Source: a virus. Taken from it: 35,472 nt of DNA. Position numbers and translations under genes: made by a program. Below, piece after piece: positions 26,002-35,472 of the stretch. Numbering within the stretch: position 1 is the first letter of the stretch; every line of letters begins with the position of its first letter. The notes under the pieces are model-generated. The model had not been told where the DNA came from and did no database searches. It worked only from the letters and a program-made list of their open reading frames with translations. Location of the stretch: positions 1 to 35,472 of IMG/VR virus record IMGVR_UViG_3300037488_000686; one strand, given 5' to 3'.

Positions 26002-28355
26002 TGGATGATCTTGAGCAATTTCTTAGTGGCGGCACTGCGGCGGCTCCGGCGGCGGCACCAACGCGCAGCACATCACAACCAAAACAATCAGAATCCACAA
26101 TTATAAAAAGAACTATGGGCGTTTTGCCGGCCATAGATTCAGATTATTTGAATTCCGAAATAAGTAAAACGCAAAAAGATTTGCCAAATATTAAGAATCC
26201 TCAAGATTTGGCAAATGCTCAAACTTATCTTGCTGATCTTCAGCAAAGATTGGGCTCATCCGGGCCGGCGACTCGCTCAATTTCGGCTCCGGCTCCCGCA
26301 ATGGCCCCATCATTAGCCGCACCATCTGGCGATTCTTTGGAGGCATTTCTGTCTGGCGCCTCGGCCTCAGGCGCCCAGCCCCAAGCCCCGGCCCCGGCTC
26401 CCGCCGCCGCTCCAGTAGCCGCCGCACCAGCCGCCACAAAGAGCAAGATCGGCGCCTTGACAGAATCTACCCTTGGCAGCATTGCCGGAGGCCTGGAGAC
26501 CGTAAGCGCTGTTGGCGGCGGCTTGCTGGCACAAATACCCGCTGGCCTGCGCGGCCTGTACGAGCTGGCGACTACGCAAGATTCGGCCAAGGCCGCCAAG
26601 GCGGTTGAGGAGACGCACAAGTTCTTGACCGAGAAGCTGCAACCTAGCACGCCAGAAGGCCAGAAATACCTCAAGGCCACCGCCGATGTGATGGGTAAGC
26701 TCAACATTCCCGCCGAGGCCATCGGGCAATATGCGCTGAAGAAGACCGGATCGCCCGCAATTGCTACGGCGTCCGAAATCTTGCTTAACCCGCTGAACGT
26801 TGTTGGCGCTGTCGGGCCTGCCGCCAAGGCGCTTGGCGCTGGAGCCAAGGCAGCCACCAAAGCAGCCAAGGCCGGCGGCGCTGTTGCGCAAGATTTCTCA
26901 GCCACCGCCGAGGCGTTGCGCACTCAGTTCCAGAACAAGATTGAAGCCACATCGGACGCCATCCGAGCGCAAAGGGCCGGCGGCGTTGCTGCGGCCCCGG
27001 CAGTGCCTGGCGCCGTTGTGCCTGCGGCCACTCCCGCAATGGCGGCTGTCCCGGCTGCGCAACCTGGCGGTCGCCAGTCGGTTGGCGCTGCTGCGGTTGA
27101 TACCGAGACCGGGCGGGTTGCGCAGGCGCAGCAACTCTACGATCCGATCGCCTTGTCCAAGGACCAGGCAACCCGCAACCCAGCGGATGTTCGCTTCGCC
27201 CGCGAGACTGCGAAAGACCCGGTATTCGGCCAAGCGTTGCAAGAGAAGTACGCCAGCGACAACGCCAAGCTCATCAACAACTTGGACATTCACATCAACA
27301 AGACTGGCGCCGAGCTCACCGGCGTTGGGGCTGGCGAGCTTGGCAAAGCGCTTACCGATGTGGTGACGCCTTATCAGGCCGGCATCAAAGGCGCAATTGC
27401 CCCGGCATACGACGCCGCTCGAGCAGCTGGGCAAATGGCCGAGCCGGTAGATGTGGCGGTCTTTCGCAACTACCTCAAAGACCACCAGGCCGAGGCCATC
27501 AATGCGCCAGTCCTCAAAAGCGTAGAGGCCAAGCTCAAAGGATTGACAGAGGGCAAGACCACCATCTCCGTCAACGACCTTGAGGAAATCCGCAAGATGA
27601 CCGGCACGCTGGCGCAGGATTCAGCGCCGAATGCGTACTACGGGCGCCAGGTCATCAAGATGATTGACAAGGCCACCGAAGGCAAGGGTGGCCCGTTGTA
27701 CCAGCAGGCTCGCAAGCTCAATGCCGATTACATGCGTGAGTTCGAGAACACGCCGGTCATCAAGAACATCTTGGCGATGAAGCCTGGCAAGACCCAGCGG
27801 GCGGTCGCCATTGAGGATTTGGTCGAGAAATCCATGCTCAAGGGTCCGCGCTCAGACGTTGAGCAGCTGTTCGCCTCGCTGAACAAGGCCGGCCCCCAGG
27901 GTCAGCAGATGGTCAACGAGCTGCGCGGGTTTGTGGCGCAGAAGATTCGCGACGAGGCCACCAAGAGCGTCACCAAGGACATTAACGGCCTGCCCTACGT
28001 CAGCTCTCACAAGCTCAATTCCATCATCACCGATCTGGACCGCAGCGGGAAACTGGACTACATCTTTGGCAAAGAGCTGGCGGACAAGTACCGCACAATC
28101 AACGATGTGGCCAAGGATGTGCTGACTGTCCCGCAGGGAACAACCAACCCTTCCGGCACGGCGTCCACCATGATAGCGGCCATGACGGAAATGGGAGTGC
28201 AGGCGGCAACGACCGGAATCCCTGTGCCGTTGGTAATGATTGGCAAGCAGATTTACGGCAAGCGCCAGGCGGCCAAAAAAACCACGAAGATCAATGAGTT
28301 CATCAACTACACCAAGCCACAGAAAGCGCCGCCGTTTGGTGGGCCAACGCCATGA
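26001..28355 (+). CDS. P22 gp16-like internal virion/ejection protein
   Basis: A 784-residue protein, longer than P22 gp16 (609). The N terminus carries two copies of a short DxLExFLSG motif (DDLEQFLSGG at the start and DSLEAFLSGA near residue 110), joined by Ala/Pro-rich linkers. A hydrophobic stretch (SIAGGLETVSAVGGGLLAQI, about 160-180) and AIATASEILLNPLNVVGAVG may insert in membranes. The rest is helical. It starts inside the stop of the previous gene (TAATG). Expected to be ejected with the DNA and to complete the trans-envelope conduit. No transglycosylase motif was found by eye. Confidence 0.75.
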   Translation: MDDLEQFLSGGTAAAPAAAPTRSTSQPKQSESTIIKRTMGVLPAIDSDYLNSEISKTQKDLPNIKNPQDLANAQTYLADLQQRLGSSGPATRSISAPAPAMAPSLAAPSGDSLEAFLSGASASGAQPQAPAPAPAAAPVAAAPAATKSKIGALTESTLGSIAGGLETVSAVGGGLLAQIPAGLRGLYELATTQDSAKAAKAVEETHKFLTEKLQPSTPEGQKYLKATADVMGKLNIPAEAIGQYALKKTGSPAIATASEILLNPLNVVGAVGPAAKALGAGAKAATKAAKAGGAVAQDFSATAEALRTQFQNKIEATSDAIRAQRAGGVAAAPAVPGAVVPAATPAMAAVPAAQPGGRQSVGAAAVDTETGRVAQAQQLYDPIALSKDQATRNPADVRFARETAKDPVFGQALQEKYASDNAKLINNLDIHINKTGAELTGVGAGELGKALTDVVTPYQAGIKGAIAPAYDAARAAGQMAEPVDVAVFRNYLKDHQAEAINAPVLKSVEAKLKGLTEGKTTISVNDLEEIRKMTGTLAQDSAPNAYYGRQVIKMIDKATEGKGGPLYQQARKLNADYMREFENTPVIKNILAMKPGKTQRAVAIEDLVEKSMLKGPRSDVEQLFASLNKAGPQGQQMVNELRGFVAQKIRDEATKSVTKDINGLPYVSSHKLNSIITDLDRSGKLDYIFGKELADKYRTINDVAKDVLTVPQGTTNPSGTASTMIAAMTEMGVQAATTGIPVPLVMIGKQIYGKRQAAKKTTKINEFINYTKPQKAPPFGGPTP

Positions 28356-28615
28356 TGCCCCAACTCCCCGCCGACAAGGCCAACCACGCCATCTACGGCG
28401 CGCTGATCTTCCTGCTGGCCCTGGCCATCCTACGCCGGCCTGACGCAGCCTATGGCCTAGTGGTGCTTGCCGCAGTGGGCAAGGAGGCGCTCGACTGGCT
28501 CTCCAACCAACGAGCCATCAAGGCGGGCCTAACGCCAACGCATGGCGTAGAATGGTTCGATGCCCTGGCAACTTGCGCCGGTGGGGCGGTGCCACTGCTC
28601 GCAAGGATGCTCTGA
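28352..28615 (+). CDS. Small membrane protein (87 aa), possible lysis or late function
   Basis: KANHAIYGALIFLLALAILR and AAYGLVVLAAVGKEALDWLS give two hydrophobic segments, then HGVEWFDALATCAGGAVPLL a third, weaker one. The HxxYG...GKExxDW...WxDxLAT pattern is seen in small phage and bacterial membrane proteins of the YfiM/DUF2279 type; no function is established. Because a clear holin exists on the other strand, this may be an anti-holin, second holin or virion-linked membrane protein. ATGA overlap with gp16-like and TGATG with the next gene. Confidence 0.65.
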   Translation: MMPQLPADKANHAIYGALIFLLALAILRRPDAAYGLVVLAAVGKEALDWLSNQRAIKAGLTPTHGVEWFDALATCAGGAVPLLARML

Positions 28616-28851
28616 TGGATTCACAACACCTGATCGACATTGGCCTGGCTACCGCTTGCGCCGTCACCGGCTGGTTCGCAAGGGAGCTGTGGGCAGCGGT
28701 CAAAGAGTTGAAATCCGACCTGACCCGCCTATCGGTCGAGCTACCCAAGACCTACGTCACCCGCGACGATTACCGCTCAGACTTGAAAGAAATCAAAGAC
28801 ATGCTGGCGCGCATCTTTGACAAGCTGGACGGCAAGGTCGACAGGTCATAG
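28615..28851 (+). CDS. Membrane-anchored coiled-coil protein (78 aa)
   Basis: A short N-terminal hydrophobic segment (LIDIGLATACAVTGWFA) leads into a charged helix (AAVKELKSDLTRLSVELPKT) and the conserved-looking end TYVTRDDYRSDLKEIKDMLARIFDKLDGK. This architecture resembles small haemolysin XhlA-like or holin-associated proteins of phages. ATG 28615 is chosen for the TGATG junction with the preceding gene. It is the last rightward gene; only 9 bp separate it from the convergent XF1762 gene. Confidence 0.7.
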   Translation: MDSQHLIDIGLATACAVTGWFARELWAAVKELKSDLTRLSVELPKTYVTRDDYRSDLKEIKDMLARIFDKLDGKVDRS

Positions 28852-28860
28852 CACCCTCTC

Positions 28861-29289
28861 CTAGCGAATACGCGCAACATCCGCCGACCCTATGTCGGAG
28901 CGTTTCCGACTTGGCGCATCCCAGCCCTTCCGGGCCGGAAGTTGCGCAGCAACTGCCCAACCAGCACCGCGCAACGACGCGCCGGACTCATCATGTTGCG
29001 TGTACGTCACGCACTTTGCATAGCCGAGCGCAGTAGCTGCGCGGCAGATGGCGCCATACAGTTTTGAGTTGGCGTTGCGCGTCCCATCGGTGCAAGTGCG
29101 CGTCACTTCCAACGTCAACCCGTCATCAAGCATCCGCGCTACTGGTCGGCCAGCGGTCGCCGTACCCACAAGAACGTCATCGACAAACAGGCCAACGCTG
29201 AACTTGTGACCGATTGGCGGCTTGTTGTGCCGGTGGTGCTCGCGCACATACTCTTGCGCCAACTTGAGCGATATGGGAGCGATTTTCAT
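28861..29289 (-). CDS. XF1762-family (GNAT-like) protein
   Basis: A 142-residue protein matching the XF1762 family: YVREHHRHNKPPIGHKFSVG, VGTATAGRPVARMLDDGLTL, EVTRTCTDGTRNANSKLYGA and TYTQHDESGASLRGAGW. The family is regarded as N-acetyltransferase-like and is frequent in phages; its substrate is unknown. It is the last gene of the leftward unit, coupled by ATGA to the gene upstream. Its presence together with the Mom-like enzyme, also a GNAT-type fold, raises the possibility of a second transfer reaction on nucleic acid or protein, but nothing in the sequence shows the target. Confidence 0.85.
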   Translation of the reverse strand: MKIAPISLKLAQEYVREHHRHNKPPIGHKFSVGLFVDDVLVGTATAGRPVARMLDDGLTLEVTRTCTDGTRNANSKLYGAICRAATALGYAKCVTYTQHDESGASLRGAGWAVAAQLPARKGWDAPSRKRSDIGSADVARIR

Positions 29290-29507
29290 AGCAGCGCCGA
29301 GATACCCACAGTCACCATCTCGCTCTTGAGTTTCGACGGGTTGGTCTTGGCCATCACCCGCAACGCCACGGCGGCAAACGTCTCTATCCCGGCCCAGGCA
29401 TCCTCAATGTGCGGATCATTGAGCGCCAGGATATGCGCTCTGATCGTCAGGACGTCAGCCGTGTAGGCTTCGCGTATGGCGTCTATGGCGGCTTTGGTGG
29501 GTCTCAT
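29286..29507 (-). CDS. Unknown small protein (73 aa)
   Basis: Begins MRPTKAAIDAIREAYTADVL at 29507, chosen because this ATG overlaps the stop of the preceding gene (ATGA); an in-frame ATG at 29519 is the alternative. Ends overlapping the XF1762 gene start by ATGA. Mostly helical, with no motif I recognise. Confidence 0.65.
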   Translation of the reverse strand: MRPTKAAIDAIREAYTADVLTIRAHILALNDPHIEDAWAGIETFAAVALRVMAKTNPSKLKSEMVTVGISALL

Positions 29508-29899
29508 CGCTGCATCCATTCGCCAAGCTGAAACACGCTGTTAGGGGCGTTGACAACGAAAAGTTTCGCCTTGCGTCTAGGCGCCAGTTCTTCCGCGTCA
29601 ATCCGCGTCAACATCTTGGCCACCCGGTTGGCCTTTGCCGCTTTGCACTGCAAACGCCGTTTTGTCCAGCGGCAGGCGTTCAGCTCTTGCGCAACCTGCG
29701 GCGACGCCCAGCGGGATGTGACCCCGCTGCCTGACACGCCTATCAACCCCATCTTGCGGGCAAGATGTAGAACTTTCTTTGTCTTGAAATGCGTGATTGC
29801 CATCCGCTTGCAAAGGGCAATTGCACTCGCCCCCGCCGGGTACTCCCGCGCTAGGTTGGCGGCGAGGTGAACTAGGAGTTCTGTGTCAGGATGCATCAT
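29504..29899 (-). CDS. Putative winged-helix DNA-binding protein (131 aa)
   Basis: The segment ASAIALCKRMAITHFKTKKVLHLARKMGLIGV (about residues 23-54) has the helix-turn-helix and wing spacing of small winged-helix proteins, followed by SRWASPQVAQELNA and a very basic region (KRRLQCKAAKANRVAKML). A phage regulator of late leftward genes is a reasonable guess. ATGA junctions at both ends bind it to the coupled gene row. Confidence 0.6.
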   Translation of the reverse strand: MMHPDTELLVHLAANLAREYPAGASAIALCKRMAITHFKTKKVLHLARKMGLIGVSGSGVTSRWASPQVAQELNACRWTKRRLQCKAAKANRVAKMLTRIDAEELAPRRKAKLFVVNAPNSVFQLGEWMQR

Positions 29900-30084
29900 T
29901 TGACCCCAATCAAGTCAGGCCGGTTAGCCCTCAACCAGGCCAACAACTCCAGCAGATCAACTGAGGTGCCGTTGAAGCCACCTTCGTTCCACGCGGATAC
30001 CACTAGGCGCCCGTTGTCTTCCACCTGAAGTTTTACGTCAAGTCCTTCCGCGTACTCCGTCACGCCGTGCATTATTTCAGTCAT
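29896..30084 (-). CDS. Unknown small acidic protein (62 aa)
   Basis: Contains EGLDVKLQVEDNGRLVVSAW and GTSVDLLELLAWLRANRPDL: two strands and a helix, a compact fold with no recognised family. Start overlaps the end of the 63-aa gene by 8 bp and the end overlaps the winged-helix gene as ATGA. Confidence 0.65.
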   Translation of the reverse strand: MTEIMHGVTEYAEGLDVKLQVEDNGRLVVSAWNEGGFNGTSVDLLELLAWLRANRPDLIGVK

Positions 30085-30268
30085 TTGACCCCCTGATGTG
30101 CCGAAGCGCGCACTCGTAGTGCTTTGGCCCCCATGACCAGCAGTCAGCGCTGTGCGTGCCGGTATGCCCGTCTCTAGCGTCTTGGTACTTGAGTTCGCGC
30201 TTGAGGCGCTCGTTCTCTGCTAGGGCATCGCCTAGCAGGAGGTCTAGGTTTCTCTCGGTCTCAGTCAT
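30077..30268 (-). CDS. Small coiled protein with Cys/His end (63 aa)
   Basis: An N-terminal coiled helix (NLDLLLGDALAENERLKREL) is followed by GTHSADCWSWGPKHYECALR, a Cys/His motif that recurs in short phage proteins (GTHxxxCxxWGPxHYxC). It may bind a metal. Function unknown. ATGA overlap with the preceding gene. Confidence 0.68.
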   Translation of the reverse strand: MTETERNLDLLLGDALAENERLKRELKYQDARDGHTGTHSADCWSWGPKHYECALRHIRGSND

Positions 30269-30435
30269 GTGCTCCGCTCCTTTTCTTTTGGCCCGTTAAA
30301 CACAACCATGCCAAGCTGGTCAAGCATTACTGCTTTCAAGCGTTCCCGATCTTCTTCTGCGTATTTGTTGGCAACTTCTTCCATAATTTTCCAAATGCTT
30401 GCGGCAACTTCTTTTGCTGGAATTATGGTGTTCAT
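30265..30435 (-). CDS. Unknown small protein (56 aa)
   Basis: MNTIIPAKEVAASIWKIMEE starts at 30435 and overlaps the stop of the Cys-containing gene upstream (ATGA); its own stop overlaps the next start (ATGA). Predicted helical with charged repeats. AT-richer than its neighbours. No family recognised; gene status rests on the coupled junctions. Confidence 0.6.
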   Translation of the reverse strand: MNTIIPAKEVAASIWKIMEEVANKYAEEDRERLKAVMLDQLGMVVFNGPKEKERST

Positions 30436-30593
30436 GTTTTCTTCTCCTCTACCGGGTCAGCCCAGCGCCCACACTTGTTGCACTGCCAATTGATGCGGTC
30501 GTAACAATCACGTTTAATTTCACCACCGCCGTGAAACCAACTGCACCACCATTTTCTCATAGTGATGATGCCCTCGATTGCCCAGGGGTTCAT
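30432..30593 (-). CDS. Small zinc-ribbon-like protein (53 aa)
   Basis: C17 and H21 near the start, C30, and the pair C38-x2-C41 (QCNKCGRW) suggest a single zinc site. Trp-rich N-terminal part (MRKWWCSWFHGGG). ATG 30593 overlaps the stop of the 86-aa gene; ATG 30560 in the same frame is an alternative. Function unknown, probably nucleic-acid or protein binding. Confidence 0.6.
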   Translation of the reverse strand: MNPWAIEGIITMRKWWCSWFHGGGEIKRDCYDRINWQCNKCGRWADPVEEKKT

Positions 30594-30850
30594 GGTTTAA
30601 GTCCAAAATGTTCGTGCATGTCATTTATTAGCTCAACTGCCCAAACTGGGGCAGCGTATTGAGCCGCTTCGTTTTCAACTATTTGGGCGCACTTCAGCAC
30701 GATGAGATTGGCAAACATCTCCAACTCCTCGGTAGTAATATGAGAAGTCTTGTAACCCTCAAACGTACCAAAGACCAGCGCCGTGCCTATGACGTTCGTT
30801 TTAATGTTCATGCCAGCCTGCTCGGCTAACTGTTTGATTTGTTCGTTCAT
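30590..30850 (-). CDS. Conserved small phage protein (86 aa)
   Basis: Begins MNEQIKQLAEQAGMNIKTNV and continues with LEMFANLIVLKCAQIVENEA and a C-terminal HEHFGLKP. This N-terminal helix plus FANLIVxKCAxIVE arrangement is very common in small uncharacterised proteins of environmental phages. No function known. It follows the holin gene with an ATGA overlap. Confidence 0.7.
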   Translation of the reverse strand: MNEQIKQLAEQAGMNIKTNVIGTALVFGTFEGYKTSHITTEELEMFANLIVLKCAQIVENEAAQYAAPVWAVELINDMHEHFGLKP

Positions 30851-31215
30851 TTCTTCAACGCTCCAGCTATAGCAGGCACAATCTTCTCGACACTGCGCCC
30901 GATGACGTAACCACCCAAGCCAAGCTCCACAATACTCCAGAGCTTCAGCACTTCAGCCTCAGTGATATTAGGAGCAGACCAACCCAGCCAGCGAGCCACG
31001 ATCAGCCCACCGAATGTCAGCATGAGGATGGGTCGCCAGCAAGCAGCAAGCCAATGATCCGACTGTGCTTCTGCCTGGACAATTGCTGCCTGCCCAGCAA
31101 ACATGGTCAATGCCATCTGCACCTTCTGGCGCTCGGCCTCGCCTGCATCAGGCCATATCTTGTCGATAATTGTCTTGCCCGCGTCTAGCGCAGCGGTAAG
31201 GGGGTCAAGACTCAT
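30847..31215 (-). CDS. Holin, 3TM-type
   Basis: A 122-residue membrane protein of the GTA/3TM holin family: amphipathic N-terminal part with IIDKIWPDAGEAERQKVQMA, then WLAACWRPILMLTFGGLIVA (about 55-74) and a second hydrophobic span LWSIVELGLGGYVIGRSVEK (about 92-111); the short charged C terminus ends ALKK. It should open the inner membrane so that the lysozyme encoded two genes upstream reaches the wall. Start overlaps the end of the 61-aa gene by 11 bp. Confidence 0.85.
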   Translation of the reverse strand: MSLDPLTAALDAGKTIIDKIWPDAGEAERQKVQMALTMFAGQAAIVQAEAQSDHWLAACWRPILMLTFGGLIVARWLGWSAPNITEAEVLKLWSIVELGLGGYVIGRSVEKIVPAIAGALKK

Positions 31216-31390
31216 CGTTTTTCTCCACGGGCAACATGAACAACTTCAAGAGCATCTCCCTGCAATCCACCAGAAGTTTTATTTCCTCATCCCAATCACC
31301 ATGATCACAGCCAAAATATTCATGGCTCATGCAGTAGATCATTTTGTCGATGCGAGGTATTAAACTGCGGTAGATCGGTACTTCTTTCAT
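31205..31390 (-). CDS. Unknown small protein between lysozyme and holin (61 aa)
   Basis: MKEVPIYRSLIPRIDKMIYC at 31390 is preferred to ATG 31396 because it overlaps the lysozyme stop (ATGA) and has AGGAG 7 bases upstream. It contains YFGCDHGDWDEEIKLLVDCR, acidic with one Cys/His group. No membrane segment, so it is not itself a spanin or holin; it may regulate lysis or be unrelated. Confidence 0.65.
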   Translation of the reverse strand: MKEVPIYRSLIPRIDKMIYCMSHEYFGCDHGDWDEEIKLLVDCREMLLKLFMLPVEKNDES

Positions 31391-31806
31391 ACCCATTCTC
31401 CTGTTTCCATTTGTGTTGCCAACCTATGGGCTCGCTCCGGCGTTTGCCGCGCCCAAGTGCTCTCTATCATCTGCGCAGCGGCCTCAAAGTACTGGCCATC
31501 CTCAGCCGCCGACAGCATCCGCTTGAACTTGAGCAAACCACCGATGCCCATTTGGAACGCCATGCCAATCAGCACGGCCTGGCGGGCATCGTTGAGTTTC
31601 TCCATCCACGGCAGCGCCTTCAGCACCGCCTCGTAGTTGCGCTTGATATCGTTGTCCAGCAGCAAGTCAATCTCATCGTTGGACAGGCCGCCGCCCTTGC
31701 GCGAGTCGATCAGCCGGCCAACGCCGATGGTCCAGAACCCTAGCGAGTCTTGGTAGGCGCAGGACTCGGCGCCTTCCTCGCGTAATAGTTGGGTCTTCAG
31801 ATCCAT
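31387..31806 (-). CDS. T4-type lysozyme (endolysin, GH24)
   Basis: A 139-residue muramidase. The catalytic triad is exactly at T4 lysozyme numbering: E11 (LLREEG), D20 (YQDSLG) and T26 (FWTIGVG). The C-terminal lobe shows ARQAVLIGMAFQMGIGGLLK and a final STWARQTPERAHRLATQMET, where the T4 enzyme has its conserved NTWARQTPxRA-like end. ATG 31806 is chosen; the open frame continues upstream in the shadow of other genes and lacks the family start. There is no signal peptide, so export requires the holin. Confidence 0.92.
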   Translation of the reverse strand: MDLKTQLLREEGAESCAYQDSLGFWTIGVGRLIDSRKGGGLSNDEIDLLLDNDIKRNYEAVLKALPWMEKLNDARQAVLIGMAFQMGIGGLLKFKRMLSAAEDGQYFEAAAQMIESTWARQTPERAHRLATQMETGEWV

Positions 31807-31985
31807 GACGCCACCACCGCAAGGGTCAAGAGCAGGCACGCGGCACCAGCCCAGAACCCGACGTTGGGGTTCCGGTAGCAGGTAATGGCGCACCCGTACT
31901 CGGCGCCGATTGGGAATGCTTCGCTGAGGGTGCGGGGAAATCGACGGGTCGTTCCTCCGTCCAGAACCTGTGGTTGTTGTAGCAT
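31797..31985 (-). CDS. Possible small membrane protein overlapping zinc-protein and lysozyme genes (62 aa)
   Basis: Its C terminus (GFWAGAACLLLTLAVVASWI) is a clear hydrophobic span at the very end of the chain, as in small tail-anchored lysis proteins. It overlaps about 160 bp of the NrdR-like gene in another frame and 10 bp of lysozyme. The N-terminal part has no known motif and may be a read-out of the zinc gene; a shorter start is possible. Kept as uncertain because the hydrophobic end sits in a lysis cassette. Confidence 0.33.
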   Translation of the reverse strand: MLQQPQVLDGGTTRRFPRTLSEAFPIGAEYGCAITCYRNPNVGFWAGAACLLLTLAVVASWI

Positions 31986-32068
31986 TTCATTCTCCTTCGG
32001 GTTGTGTTGTCAGGCTGCTGGCGCGTGTCCAGCGTCTCTGTTGGGGCGTTACACAGCGGGCATTGCAT
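31826..32068 (-). CDS. NrdR-like zinc-ribbon protein (80 aa)
   Basis: MQCPLCNAPTETLDTRQQPD at 32068 begins a zinc ribbon with C3-x2-C6, then RRRMKCYNNHRF with C29 and H33, the same layout as the N-terminal ribbon of NrdR and of small phage transcription factors. The Ala/Pro/Ser-rich second half (from ~45) looks disordered and may be functionally unimportant. An upstream in-frame ATG (32173) was rejected since it only reads other genes out of frame. Overlaps the 44-aa gene by 20 bp. Confidence 0.7.
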   Translation of the reverse strand: MQCPLCNAPTETLDTRQQPDNTTRRRMKCYNNHRFWTEERPVDFPAPSAKHSQSAPSTGAPLPATGTPTSGSGLVPRACS

Positions 32069-32183
32069 AGAGCGGCACCGCAATGCATCCCCGGTCCACC
32101 CAGTACTGCATCGCTTCCGTGCGCCTGGTGAGCAGGATGCAGACGCCAAACTCGGTGGTGACCATCCATCCAATGTGCGTCAT
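32049..32183 (-). CDS. Unknown microprotein (44 aa)
   Basis: MTHIGWMVTTEFGVCILLTR starts at 32183, overlapping the stop of the 36-aa membrane gene (ATGA), and ends with WVDRGCIAVPLYAMPAV. The GC-x-xVPLYxxP end resembles short phage proteins of unknown function. Two strands and a helix are expected. Confidence 0.6.
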   Translation of the reverse strand: MTHIGWMVTTEFGVCILLTRRTEAMQYWVDRGCIAVPLYAMPAV

Positions 32184-32290
32184 GCCAGCCACGCAATCAG
32201 CGCCATCAGCGCCACAATGATTACGGACCACAGCAGGGCGCTGCGGAAAGCTGCGCGGTAGTAGTACAGGTCAGCTTCTTCATCGTTCAT
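32180..32290 (-). CDS. Single-span membrane microprotein (36 aa)
   Basis: MNDEEADLYYYRAAFRSALL followed by WSVIIVALMALIAWLA: an acidic, Tyr-rich N-terminal part and one transmembrane helix to the C terminus. Start overlaps the upstream stop and stop overlaps the downstream start, both ATGA. Could modulate the holin or alter the host membrane; no homologue recognised. Confidence 0.6.
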   Translation of the reverse strand: MNDEEADLYYYRAAFRSALLWSVIIVALMALIAWLA

Positions 32291-32448
32291 TTCTTCGGCG
32301 TCCTTGGCATTGGGGCGGTCCACTTAAATTCCGGCGGGCAGGGATGCACATGGCCTGCTCTCGGAACAATGTGCGGCGGGCTGGCGGGCTCGTCAAAAAA
32401 TACGCGCTTGGCCACGCTGTCGGCGTTGTGTCTTTGGTAGCTAATCAT
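32287..32448 (-). CDS. Unknown small protein (53 aa)
   Basis: MISYQRHNADSVAKRVFFDE begins at 32448, an ATG chosen for its ATGA overlap with the stop of the 158-aa gene; a longer frame from 32490 is possible but lacks support. Pro/His-rich second half (SPPHIVPRAGHVHPCPPEFK). No family recognised. Confidence 0.58.
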   Translation of the reverse strand: MISYQRHNADSVAKRVFFDEPASPPHIVPRAGHVHPCPPEFKWTAPMPRTPKK

Positions 32449-32921
32449 GTCTTTGACCTCTCTGGCCAGCTGTCTGGCCGTGGATACCATTTGATAGTGT
32501 CTTGCGCCGGGTCGGCCCGACGGCTGTACCGCATCACTGTTGCGAAACTGTCCGAGTCAAGGCATGGAAAAGACCAGACTTTGCCGTCCCACCAACTGAC
32601 GCTATGGCCCCCGGTCGGCCACCATCCAATGCTTGGTGGCTTATTCATCGTACCCACCATCGCCATCAAATCGTTCCAGGGCCAGTCGTCCAGGGCCAGC
32701 AACTCAATCGCCTCGATCTTGTCGGGGCTCAGGAGGCCGAGAATGTCGACGTCCTTGATGTAGGCGGCCGCCAGGCACATGGTGCTGGGGTAGTCGGGGT
32801 GGTCGCCATGCCCGAAACACTCGGGCTCGTAGTCCAGGTGGCAGACGAGCGGCTCGCTCACATCGTCTATGTTGTAGACGAATTCCACGCTATCAATTGG
32901 GCAGGGTGGCGAGCCGTTCAT
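32445..32921 (-). CDS. Conserved phage protein of unknown function (158 aa)
   Basis: Begins MNGSPPCPIDSVEFVYNIDD and contains VCHLDYEPECFGHGDHPDYP and TMCLAAAYIKDVDILGLLSP, with a C-terminal part rich in Trp. The LDYEPE...PDYPxTMxLxAAYVxDVDI pattern occurs in uncharacterised phage proteins. Probably an alpha/beta fold with several Asp/Glu residues in an acidic cluster; enzymatic role cannot be claimed. ATGA junctions on both sides. Confidence 0.7.
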   Translation of the reverse strand: MNGSPPCPIDSVEFVYNIDDVSEPLVCHLDYEPECFGHGDHPDYPSTMCLAAAYIKDVDILGLLSPDKIEAIELLALDDWPWNDLMAMVGTMNKPPSIGWWPTGGHSVSWWDGKVWSFPCLDSDSFATVMRYSRRADPAQDTIKWYPRPDSWPERSKT

Positions 32922-32992
32922 GAGAGCGCCAGGAAGAGGAAGGTGGCGCCGGCAAGCCCTAGGGCTATGGCGAAGAGGGTGTCTTGGATCAT
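32918..32992 (-). CDS. 24-residue membrane microprotein with strong ribosome site
   Basis: MIQDTLFAIALGLAGATFLF plus LALS: a single hydrophobic helix and nothing else. AAGGAG lies 6 bases before the ATG at 32992, and the stop overlaps the next ATG (ATGA), so it is very likely translated although too short for most gene finders. A GC-rich 7-bp hairpin (33008-33026) lies just upstream. Possible roles are membrane perturbation or use as a translational leader for the 158-aa gene. Confidence 0.58.
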   Translation of the reverse strand: MIQDTLFAIALGLAGATFLFLALS

Positions 32993-33034
32993 GGGGGGCT
33001 CCTTGATGCCCGGCGCTTGGCCGGGCTGGGTTGG

Positions 33035-33343
33035 TTAGGCTTTGGTGTTAAGGGCTTCGACCAGTCTAAAGTTTGCTTCGCTGGTGTCCAGATTCGGTGG
33101 TGTATCTTTGCCGCCTGCCCCGATGCTCCAAGTCCAAACCGTGTGGCGTTTGGACAGCAGCGTCACCCACAGCTTGCGACCGATCTTTTCGATGTGCAGG
33201 TTGATCGGCTGGTGGCCGTGCAGGGTTGTGATGAGCCGGCTGGCTTGCTTCTGGTTGATGGTGCCGGCGTCAAGCAGGCTCCAGGCAAACTTGATGTTGT
33301 CAAGTTCGTGGCCTTCGGCGCTGTTGAATGTTGCAATGATCAT
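33035..33343 (-). CDS. Unknown protein (102 aa)
   Basis: Begins MIIATFNSAEGHELDNIKFA; contains SRLITTLHGHQPINLHIEKI and a beta segment KLWVTLLSKRHTVWTWSIG. No family recognised. The 59-bp gap upstream (33344-33402) holds an A8 tract and a possible weak promoter only. Gene status is supported by position and codon pattern. Confidence 0.62.
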   Translation of the reverse strand: MIIATFNSAEGHELDNIKFAWSLLDAGTINQKQASRLITTLHGHQPINLHIEKIGRKLWVTLLSKRHTVWTWSIGAGGKDTPPNLDTSEANFRLVEALNTKA

Positions 33344-33402
33344 GTTGTCTCTCCGGTCCGGTTGCGGGTTGGTGTGAAAAGGATATTACCTAAAAAAAAG
33401 CA

Positions 33403-33759
33403 TCAATTCTTAGGTACAAACCCCAGGTTTGCCATCTTTTTTTTAGCATCTTCTTGGCCGCGCCCAACGATCACATGGTGCCCCAGGTTGCGCAAGTAGT
33501 CGTGCCAACTTTGCTGCTCTGACGAGACGCTGCCGCCTTGCTCCCGCTTCATTTCGATCCAGAGCAGCCAGGCCGGCACGAACAGGTCAGGCACTCCAGC
33601 GCTGACGCCTTCGGCCTTCAGGCGGCCAGCCGCGGCGATGCCTCGCAGGCCACCGTTCGGGATCGCAAAGACCCGCACCCCGCAAACCTGGCGGATCCAC
33701 TGCACCAGCTCGCGCTGCTCTTCGTGTTCTGTTTTCAAAATGGCACGTCCATTGTCCAC
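33403..33759 (-). CDS. VRR-NUC domain nuclease
   Basis: A 118-residue single-domain VRR-NUC protein. EHEEQRELVQWIRQ at the N terminus, PNGGLRG (34-40), then the catalytic PD-(D/E)XK-type residues D58 (GVPDLFV) and E69-x-K71 (LWIEMKRE), Q82 and a final HVIVGRG strand. Phage VRR-NUC proteins of this size act on branched DNA such as Holliday junctions, useful for clearing recombination intermediates before headful packaging. It overlaps the upstream Cys-rich gene by 25 bp in the recombination part of the leftward unit. Confidence 0.9.
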   Translation of the reverse strand: MDNGRAILKTEHEEQRELVQWIRQVCGVRVFAIPNGGLRGIAAAGRLKAEGVSAGVPDLFVPAWLLWIEMKREQGGSVSSEQQSWHDYLRNLGHHVIVGRGQEDAKKKMANLGFVPKN

Positions 33760-33926
33760 TTGTCACACGCATCCGGCGTGGCGGCAAACTCCTCCGGCGG
33801 CTCCTTAAAAAACTCCACGCACAGTCCGTCCGTGCCGTACATCTCGCAGCTATGGCAGCACTTGGGCGGGCCGGCCTCAAGCATCTTGTAGTAGGCGGTA
33901 ACAATTTCAGGCTGTTTGTGGCGCAT
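33735..33926 (-). CDS. Small cysteine-rich, probably zinc-binding protein (63 aa)
   Basis: Contains KCCHSCEMYGTDGLCVEFFK and PDACDKWTMD: five to six cysteines in the layout C-x2-C ... C ... C, as in short phage zinc proteins that follow helicase genes. Start at 33926 lies 20 bp inside the helicase gene; end overlaps VRR-NUC. Likely accessory to one of the two enzymes; not assigned. Confidence 0.7.
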   Translation of the reverse strand: MRHKQPEIVTAYYKMLEAGPPKCCHSCEMYGTDGLCVEFFKEPPEEFAATPDACDKWTMDVPF

Positions 33927-35472
33927 CTAGTTTCCATTTTCGTTGCATAACACGGTGATATTTACCGTCCATCTTGAACTCGATCATGTCTGGCGGCTCG
34001 CCGCAGGAAAGAATGTCGGCCACCACGTCCAGCGGGTTGTGCAGGTCTGACACGAGCACATCGGCATCCCTGGCAATTGACGCCACGGTCTGGCGCGCCT
34101 TCTCGCCGGAATAGCCGGGATTGTTCACCGGCATGTACTCGTTCACTGGCGCATCGGACAAAGCGCCGTAATAGGTGACCATCAACATTTCATGGCCGCT
34201 AGCCCGGCCAACATGTTTGCGCCAGCGCCAGGCGGTCACCGACATTTCCTTGCCCGCCAAGCCCATAATGTCGTCGTTCTGGAGCTTGAGCTTCTTGATC
34301 TCCGGCTCCGGGAAAGGATGCCCGCAGGCAGGGCATACACGGGCCGCCAGGGCGCAGAGTTCTTGACAGTTGTCGCATACCTTCACCGGCGCAGCGCCTT
34401 CCTTCTCGCCTTTTTTGTTCGGCGGTCGGACGTGCGTGATGGGGCCGTGGGTTGCTACCACTGCGGCGAAGTCGAGGACCAGGCAGTGATCGGTGTGGCT
34501 CTTGGGCCGCAAACCCCGGCCCGCCATCTGGACGTAGAGGCCTGGGCTCATGGTGGGCCGCAGCATGGCGATCAGGTCAATGTCCGGGTAATCAAATCCG
34601 GTGGTCAGGACGTTGGCGTTGGTCAGGCAGCGGATTCGGCCCGCCTTGAATTCGCCAATGATGCGCTCTCGCTCACGCTTGGAAGTGGCGCCGGTGATGC
34701 AGTCGGCGACAATGCCGAGCTCGTTGAGCTTGTCGCAAATGTTCCAGGCATGTTGGACGCCGCTGCAAAATGCCAGCCAAGCCTTGCGATCCCCGGCCAG
34801 CTTGATAATCTCGCGCACAACGGAATTGTTCTGGTCTTCGGTGTCCACTGCCGCCTGCAACTCGGCCTCAATGAACTCCCCGCCGCGCTTGTGAACCTCG
34901 GTCACATCAAGCTGGGCGGTAGTGTGCTTGGAGCGTAGCGGCGCCAGATGGCCGAGGCGCACCAGTTCAAGGATATTGGTCGGCTCAATGAGCTCGCGGA
35001 AGATCGCCGGCTCGTCGGTAATCATTCCGTGGCCGAGGCGGTAAGGCGTGGCGGTCAGGCCCACCACCCGCAGGCGCGGGTTGATCGTTAGCAGTGCGGC
35101 CAGCAGCGACCGGTAGCCGCCTTGGTCTTTGTGCGCGATCAGGTGGCACTCGTCCACCAGCACCAGATCAACGTGCCCGAGCAGCGCGGCCTTCTTCCGC
35201 ACCGACTGGATGCCGGCAAAGGTGATTGGCTCGCCCAGCTGCTTCTTGCCGATGCTGGCGCTGTAGATGCCAACCGGCACATCGGGCCAGTGCTGGCGCA
35301 ACTTCTCCACGTTCTGCTCTATCAATTCCTTGACGTGGGTCAACATCAGAATCTGGCTGTCCGGCCACTCCTGCAGCACTCGCTTGCACAGCGCTGCAAT
35401 AATGTGGCTCTTGCCCGAGCCGGTTGGCAGCACCAGGCAGGGGTTGCCGGTGGTGTTGCGGTCGAACCAGGC
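33907..35472 (-). CDS. Superfamily 2 DEAD/DEAH helicase (5' end beyond window, continues at 1-149)
   Basis: The frame is open to the window edge (AWFDRNTTGNP at the edge), so 522 residues are visible. Motifs: Walker A LPTGSGKSH, DEAH-type box LVLVDECHLI, motif III GLTATP, and motif VI QMAGRGLRPK. A four-cysteine zinc element, CDNCQELCALAARVCPACG, follows the helicase core, and a C-terminal domain of about 150 residues ends the chain. This is the common phage helicase related to RAD25/SSL2-type enzymes, for replication or recombination fork processing. With the fragment at 1-149 the protein would be about 535 residues. A GTG inside Walker A is not the start. Confidence 0.93.
   Translation of the reverse strand, partial: AWFDRNTTGNPCLVLPTGSGKSHIIAALCKRVLQEWPDSQILMLTHVKELIEQNVEKLRQHWPDVPVGIYSASIGKKQLGEPITFAGIQSVRKKAALLGHVDLVLVDECHLIAHKDQGGYRSLLAALLTINPRLRVVGLTATPYRLGHGMITDEPAIFRELIEPTNILELVRLGHLAPLRSKHTTAQLDVTEVHKRGGEFIEAELQAAVDTEDQNNSVVREIIKLAGDRKAWLAFCSGVQHAWNICDKLNELGIVADCITGATSKRERERIIGEFKAGRIRCLTNANVLTTGFDYPDIDLIAMLRPTMSPGLYVQMAGRGLRPKSHTDHCLVLDFAAVVATHGPITHVRPPNKKGEKEGAAPVKVCDNCQELCALAARVCPACGHPFPEPEIKKLKLQNDDIMGLAGKEMSVTAWRWRKHVGRASGHEMLMVTYYGALSDAPVNEYMPVNNPGYSGEKARQTVASIARDADVLVSDLHNPLDVVADILSCGEPPDMIEFKMDGKYHRVMQRKWKLDAPQTA
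35366..35472. repeat. Right copy of the 107-bp diverged terminal overlap
   Basis: Partner of bases 1-107: same length, no gaps, 8 substitutions. It encodes the same helicase segment (AWFDRN to about LQEW), with Thr here where the left copy has Asn. Ends exactly at the last base of the window. Confidence 0.92.

Follow-up and report, generated by a model that had tools for sequence, protein, structure and literature searches.

Evidence for a putative late operon of interchangeable small-gene cassettes joined at frame-keeping patches in an uncultivated P22-like phage

Half-gene shuffling at a conserved central region is known from type I restriction HsdS and from shufflons. In T4-type phages, the PeSL cassettes, mobile elements made of a promoter and a stem-loop, mediate modular gene shuffling (Arbiol 2010; Comeau 2014, as summarized in PMC4503421). 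Annealing proteins of the Sak type work on diverged DNA, and they have been linked to mosaicism (PMC5499656), and in Escherichia coli the removal of an intragenic Shine-Dalgarno (SD) sequence strongly lowered reinitiation in four of the five gene pairs tested (PMC6728339). The present study concerns a chain of 18 genes, most of them very small, that runs on the minus strand from 32992 to 28861 around the lysis genes of the virus record IMGVR_UViG_3300037488_000686, where it is convergent with a plus-strand structural operon; the window is the whole stretch analysed, 35,472 bases. We consider it probable that this chain is a late operon of interchangeable cassettes joined at frame-keeping patches, and that the family of one of its genes, g86, recombines inside the gene at a short core.

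Profile searches point to a P22-like podovirus as the source of the window, in which they recognize a portal, a head-closure protein, a primase-helicase, a Sak4-like annealing protein, a Cas4-type exonuclease and an SSB-like protein. The nearest portals are those of an uncultured Manatee Spring phage (70% identity) and of Rhodoferax phage P26218 (42%), and the chain region gave zero matches to cultured phages by megablast. About 50 IMG/VR contigs retain the same chain, and the relatives are almost all metagenome contigs. Rhodoferax phage P26218 and the Manatee Spring phages were considered as annotated models of the chain and were set aside, the chain not being visible in the stretches fetched.

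Half-gene exchange in the HF family

Many of the cassettes between the holin gene and g63 belong to two families, HF and PL. The HF proteins start with MNERI, carry a central KFAELIVREC and end in HFGVEP. The g86 product (30590–30850, minus strand) belongs to this shuffled family of three-helix microproteins, and its central core (FANLIVLKC; 30689–30715, minus strand) is a diverged copy of the DNA core TTCGCCGAGTTGATTGTnnnnGAATGT. In its AlphaFold2 (AF2) model, helices span residues 3–11, 40–62 and 69–82 and a disordered loop spans residues 22–34 (predicted local distance difference test, pLDDT, 79.8; predicted template modelling score, pTM, 0.66). At E ≤ 0.01, none of 67 HF members had a Pfam or PHROGs match; tblastn of one chimeric member against 50,697 phage records was negative, a protein scan of 84,980 genomes confirmed nothing, and open-access PMC text yielded no account of either the family or its core sequence. 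By sequence, HF appears to be an undescribed family, absent from Pfam, PHROGs and cultured phages. Both HF and PL are common in IMG/VR, where one locus of about 15 kb holds up to 12 HF genes.

The HF members were gathered through motif-based scans, by which rarer types are missed, and were cut at the central motif, the halves being clustered at 70% identity by single linkage. The 522 distinct members from 233 loci, a count that includes loci fetched for the exact core, comprise 354 N types and 359 C types in 460 combinations. For types with at least two occurrences, 61 of 63 N types are joined to two or more C types and 61 of 65 C types to two or more N types, and the pattern was unchanged at 60, 70 and 80% clustering of the first 297 members. 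The same halving of ten other chain genes gave 2–14 combinations each, unlike HF. The N-half type of g86 (GMNIKTNVIG...) is joined to other C-halves in L201, L020, L016, L028 and L223, and its C-half type is also found with other N-halves. Misassembly could make some of the chimeras, yet the N types with several partners span many contigs. Within members of the same type, the ratio of non-synonymous to synonymous polymorphism (pN/pS) is 0.21–0.26, and it is 0.20 between g86 and its same-type relatives.

The breakpoints fall at one place. HF pairs that share the N-half and differ in the C-half have about 90% DNA identity as far as the core, falling to about 25% beyond codon +10, and the pairs that share the C-half and differ in the N-half give the mirror image; exchange therefore lies inside or adjoining the 27-nt motif. 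Hundreds of uncultivated phages appear to exchange HF halves with one another at one short, constant DNA sequence.

The core itself was examined in 200 distinct combinations taken from 62 loci, which were found via degenerate protein patterns and do not include the loci fetched for the exact core. Its first Glu is GAG in 80% and its second Glu GAA in 81%, so that no single codon preference explains both. Ala is GCC in 82% (17–20% elsewhere), Leu is TTG in 80% (about 25%) and Phe is TTC in 78% (about 37%), and the bias is present in all GC classes. Outside the window's own clade, these frequencies argue that the core is conserved as DNA against codon usage. At least 120 IMG/VR stretches contain the exact TTCGCCGAGTTGATTGTnnnnGAATGT, the contigs that carry them ranging from 4 to 355 kb in size, and 240 of 240 exact copies lie in the open FAELIV frame. 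A search of 257 billion bases of genomic sequence from bacteria and archaea gave five stretches with the exact core, on contigs of 3–9 kb from metagenome bins, which are probably phage pieces in bins, and no host is therefore assigned; the bin labels of these contigs (L504–L508) are Burkholderiales, Chlorobiota, Erysipelotrichaceae, Bacteroidetes and an actinobacterium.

Gene ends, cassette exchange and the chain

The PL proteins carry PLYTKPQWQGLT and end in EAKLKEKNT, and one member gave a single weak match by tblastn against the 50,697 phage records. Their halves also shuffle, with 135 N types, 124 C types and 157 combinations. Some genes consist of an HF N-half fused to a PL C-half, as at L327 (4855–5098) and in two 90-aa members from the window clade.

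Both families end in a distinctive string of codons. The HF genes close with CAT TTT GGA GTT GAA GAA TGA, with Gly encoded by GGA in 313 of 319 (background 23%), so that GGAG sits 11 nt before the ATG of ATGA; the PL genes close with AAG GAG AAG AAC ACA TGA, with AAG in 181 and GAG in 152 of 198 (backgrounds 34% and 25%), so that AAGGAG sits 12–13 nt before the ATG. The mean energy of pairing with the anti-SD is -5.5 kcal/mol at HF ends and -7.1 kcal/mol at PL ends, versus -2.7 and -2.0 kcal/mol forty bases upstream. From their codons and pairing energies, the C-termini of HF and PL appear to encode the SD of the next gene. Comparable sites lie in the window (all on the minus strand): GAGGAG at 30444–30449, in the last codons of g53b, serves the ATGA start of g56 (-9.1 kcal/mol), AAGGAG at 30277–30282, in the last codons of g56, serves g63 (-8.3 kcal/mol), and the junction from g63 to g62b reaches -10.1 kcal/mol. 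The SD is weak at the junctions g24 to g158, g86 to g53b and g73 to mom.

Comparison of about 44 relatives, in which gain and loss of genes are seen, indicates that the chain is an array of interchangeable cassettes. The anchors are g24, the g158 pair, g36, g44/zf80, g62a, lysozyme, holin, g63, g131 and g73. The interval between the holin gene and g63 varies from contig to contig in how many genes it holds and of which kinds, and in other relatives the holin slot itself holds a second type, about 35% identical. The last slot is the most exactly bounded. In 18 contigs with mom, the gene lies exactly between two copies of GCTATGA (in the window, on the minus strand, at 29286–29292 upstream and at 28846–28852 downstream, where the copy doubles as the stop of the convergent plus-strand gene). 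Among 42 distinct contigs that lack mom, the end of g73 is usually a single GCTATGA, with GTTATGA or ACTGTGA in a few, and in most of them g73 runs directly into the convergent structural gene. Short sequences that hold the stop, the start and the frame would therefore be the exchange points. In a few other contigs, the mom slot is filled by a 96-aa gene. In L082 and L097, a gene of 343–376 aa is inserted exactly between lysozyme and holin.

According to the earlier note on this DNA, reinitiation links the genes of the chain and their dosage is set by their order. The statement on dosage is not supported by the chain as now read: 9 of 17 starts have an anti-SD energy of -6 kcal/mol or lower, versus 14% of background positions, upstream gene ends encode the SD in two shuffled families, and the number of genes from holin to mom ranges from about 2 to 9 across relatives. 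With an SD before many starts, reinitiation alone is probably not what feeds the downstream genes, and SD-assisted coupling is likely. A consensus scan of 28300–35472 found no excess of promoter-like sites (2, against 2.4 expected).

The chain around the lysis genes, on the present comparisons, is real. It was first reported as coupled microproteins of 24, 36, 44, 53, 53, 56, 61, 62, 63 and 73 residues, mostly overlapping by ATGA and mostly lacking a recognized family, and each of these points has held: all ten sizes are present as open reading frames (ORFs) where they were placed, and profile searches in Pfam and PHROGs left most members without a family. The gene list was right in sizes and incomplete, since it missed zf80 (31826–32068). 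With zf80 counted, the 18 genes form 17 junctions, of which 12 are ATGA, the rest being overlaps of 8, 10, 11 and 20 nt and one of 160 nt, out of frame. In the structural operon of the same genome, 4-nt overlaps occur at 4 of 25 junctions, a rate at which 12 of 17 has P = 8e-7. The junctions are also conserved: ATGA is found in relatives at 238 of 609 stops before g73, after g24 in 26 of 26 relatives and after g86 in 23 of 23. This tally takes only the stop contexts of homology-supported genes and is independent of the choice of ORF caller; a caller-based tally of 374 of 600 was discarded, as the caller rewards 4-nt overlaps. Frameshift-tolerant evolution, named at the outset as what would speak against these genes, was looked for in homologs and not seen: internal premature stops are almost absent, and pooled pN/pS is 0.13–0.59, the higher values belonging mainly to zf80 and g62a, which overlap each other out of frame, and to g158, with a single usable homolog. 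Five chain genes have three or fewer distinct homologs, and g102, next to the chain, has none. The chain genes with enough homologs appear to be under purifying selection.

The genes upstream of lysozyme, all on the minus strand, begin with g24 (32918–32992), a 24-aa microprotein with a single membrane span (pN/pS 0.19; SD of its own start -7.7 kcal/mol). It is followed by g158 (32445–32921), which has no known family and is a fused pair; relatives have two separate genes, of about 92 and 66–69 aa, that usually overlap by 11 nt, and the fusion is in frame and due to a local change of sequence that lies before the junction. The 53-aa g53a (32287–32448) is an ATGA-coupled optional cassette present in a minority of relatives. 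Next come g36 (32180–32290; 36 aa), with a C-terminal membrane span and zero stops in 31 distinct homologs, and g44 (32049–32183; 44 aa), which has an ATGA junction with g36. The product of zf80 (31826–32068) is an NrdR-type zinc ribbon (PF22811, 31.7 bits versus a cutoff of 27.2); it is not NrdR itself, because its 80 aa hold the zinc-ribbon domain only and no ATP-cone part. The gene overlaps g44 by 20 nt, as kept in about 20 relatives, and g62a (31797–31985; 62 aa, C-terminal membrane span, strong SD of -8.8 kcal/mol) by 160 nt in another frame. Each frame of this overlap has homologs in many relatives, and it may be a dual-coding stretch. Just upstream of the chain, g102 (33035–33343, minus strand) has no clear relative in the neighbouring phages fetched, where the slot holds different small genes.

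The lysis genes, also on the minus strand, are the lysozyme (endolysin) gene (31387–31806; Phage_lysozyme PF00959, E 7e-12, the longer ORF having a PHROG endolysin match) and the holin gene (30847–31215), whose product has three membrane spans and is a GTA_holin_3TM protein (PF11351, 5e-11, 43.5 bits versus a gathering score of 24.8; phrog_3427, 5e-27); the optional cassette g61 (31205–31390) fills the gap between them. Downstream of g86, on the same strand, g53b (30432–30593) encodes a Trp/Cys-rich putative zinc protein. Its true start is probably the 12th codon, at 30560, which gives 42 aa, because most homologs begin near residue 11–12. The first 11 codons (30560–30593, MNPWAIEGIIT) look like the beginning of a different cassette family (MNPWTIESIIT...) and are likely the remnant of another cassette after a swap. 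The minus strand continues with g56 (30265–30435), an optional cassette, g63 (30077–30268), the conserved anchor on the distal side of the variable stretch (pN/pS 0.22), g62b (29896–30084), again optional, g131 (29504–29899), which has no known family and is replaced in several relatives by a protein only about 25% identical, and g73 (29286–29507), the anchor before the last slot, with mostly 89–99% identity in 92 relatives and a pN/pS of 0.13.

The last gene, mom (28861–29289, minus strand), is the optional cassette of that slot, and its product is a Mom-like DNA-modification enzyme by homology. It matches phrog_1384 with E 8.5e-36; alone it stays below the cutoff of Pfam Mom (PF25680; 16.8 bits, cutoff 27.1), and among its 28 homologs, 24 have PF25680 matches with E ≤ 0.01. 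Comparing profiles directly with Mu Mom gave a weak result, and the assignment was settled by fold: the first Foldseek hit of the AF2 model (pLDDT 86) is phage Mu Mom 8bv8 (E 2.1e-5, TM-score 0.65 over 122 columns), with other GNAT enzymes scoring close behind. The residue S75 is invariant in the 28 homologs and aligns with Mu S124, which is mutated in the 8bv8 structure, in a weak profile alignment (E 0.036). The model indicates that the last gene encodes a Mom-type enzyme with a GNAT-like Mom fold, and by analogy its role is likely DNA modification against restriction. The window gene (142 aa) stops at TAG (28861–28863, minus strand) five codons before the usual end, the relatives being 147 aa. 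Mom-like proteins, mostly uncharacterized and 39–61% identical, are present in cultured phages, among them the Escherichia phages Kapi1 and TL-2011a and Mycobacterium abscessus prophages. Neither g53b nor zf80 adjoins mom, and both were dropped as candidates for a Com-like activator.

Cassette exchange and competing explanations

The arrangement proposed is that of an uncultivated P22-like podovirus whose late operon would carry small-gene cassettes around lysozyme and holin, with an optional Mom-like gene in last place. The cassettes would join at ATGA junctions, at many of which the upstream gene ends in codons that contain the SD of the next gene, so that a swapped cassette would bring its neighbour's ribosome-binding site and remain coupled. 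The HF genes would in addition recombine internally, exchanging N- and C-halves at the 27-nt core with the frame preserved. The short DNA patches (the start, the core and the SD-ATGA end) would be annealed by phage recombination systems, for which the Sak4-like protein, the Cas4-type exonuclease and the SSB-like protein are the candidate machinery in the window phage, and annealing by the phage's own Sak4-type system is plausible. As a more tentative extension, perhaps correct and somewhat doubtful, phages of tens to hundreds of kb may share a dedicated combinatorial small-protein system, a generator of diversity made of tandem three-helix microproteins, with halves exchangeable at the 27-nt core and a translated ribosome-binding site at the end of each gene to couple the one after it; every crossover at a patch would then yield a new protein that can be translated. 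That its purpose is to supply varied small binding proteins against hosts, defences or rival phages is speculative.

Several points weigh against the cassette model. We infer the late timing of the operon from its lysis genes, and likewise the link of Sak4 to the HF crossovers; the crossovers themselves were read from comparison across contigs, with none seen within one population. The core has decayed in the clade of the window, where g86 reads TTTGCCAATCTCATCGTGCTGAAGTGC; because the core is degenerate there and the window holds a single HF gene, shuffling in this clade may be old. Conservation of the core as DNA could reflect recent common descent or gene conversion and not a site function, and the g86 model found no significant solved relative in the PDB by Foldseek.

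The other reading with an appreciable chance of being true, and compatible with exchange of cassettes, is a host-takeover and counter-defence island in which every small gene would act by blocking a function or a defence of the host, as the earlier note had proposed. Of that proposal the last gene alone stood, with its phrog_1384 match and the fold of Mu Mom; optional, fast-exchanging cassettes would also suit an arms race, and three of the small proteins encoded near the lysis genes are membrane proteins. No other member matches a Pfam or PHROGs profile of such a role, and PADLOC, whose models cover defence and not anti-defence proteins, gave no match for ten products. The array, moreover, flanks lysis genes, which are usually late, whereas takeover islands are usually early.

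It is unlikely that ordinary phage mosaicism accounts for the locus, that is, an ATGA-compacted late operon of fast-evolving ORFans in which the conserved peptides are protein motifs of one family. ATGA overlaps (PMC6728339) and mosaicism at gene boundaries are common in prokaryotes and phages, and the modules are under purifying selection as proteins. Protein motifs, however, would not call for opposite codons of the same amino acid at two core positions against background usage, nor for a terminal Gly that is GGA in 98%; and the HF halves combine almost without restriction, their breakpoints falling at a single place, unlike the ten other chain genes. No better placed is a lysis-timing module, improbable in our view, in which the task of the small membrane proteins and the cassettes is to tune holin and lysozyme: g24, g36 and g62a, with single membrane spans read from the sequence, belong to the core genes of the relatives and sit directly upstream of lysozyme and holin, but the variable cassettes downstream of holin look mostly soluble and are common to unrelated phages. 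Dedicated site-specific recombination at the core, akin to shufflons or inverting half-gene cassettes and in place of general annealing, is quite improbable: the fixed 27-nt core in one frame on contigs of very different size fits it, but the core tolerates variation as homology-based exchange predicts, gene boundaries reassort too, and no recombinase gene was recognized in the window chain, the arrays of other phages not having been searched.

Significance and relation to described systems

Most phage genes are small ORFans whose origin is an open question, and here an origin seems visible as half-gene trading at fixed short sequences; half swapping at the core would be a natural way to generate new small phage proteins. 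If this is confirmed, a large class of small phage genes would be combinations of modules, their evolution could be tested in one lake sample, and HF would offer a protein scaffold with natural variable loops. A caution also follows for annotation: a conserved peptide at the end of a gene may represent a ribosome-binding site and not a protein motif.

With the ATGA termination-reinitiation pairs of PMC6728339, the chain shares ATGA overlaps with an intragenic SD; it differs in being a chain of 18 genes, in which the conserved C-terminal peptide of two families would be a translated SD. The Mom-like protein shares with Mu Mom (8bv8, PF25680, phrog_1384) a GNAT-like fold over the 122 aligned columns, whereas it is 142 aa long against 241 aa in Mu, has g73 and not a Com-type gene directly upstream, and is an optional cassette of a lysis operon. 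Like the PeSL elements, the chain has short repeated DNA associated with small genes that would promote the exchange of gene modules between phages. In PeSL this DNA lies between the genes, whereas in the chain it is coding (the core and the gene ends), with little intergenic space and no promoter/stem-loop identified; half-genes are exchanged in the chain families, and a single pool serves phages that differ greatly in size. There is also a likeness to HsdS and the shufflons, where variable N- and C-halves joined at a conserved middle give combinatorial products; the chain differs from these in that no inversion or recombinase is seen, and in that its units are tandem ATGA-linked phage microprotein genes whose ends carry the next ribosome-binding site.

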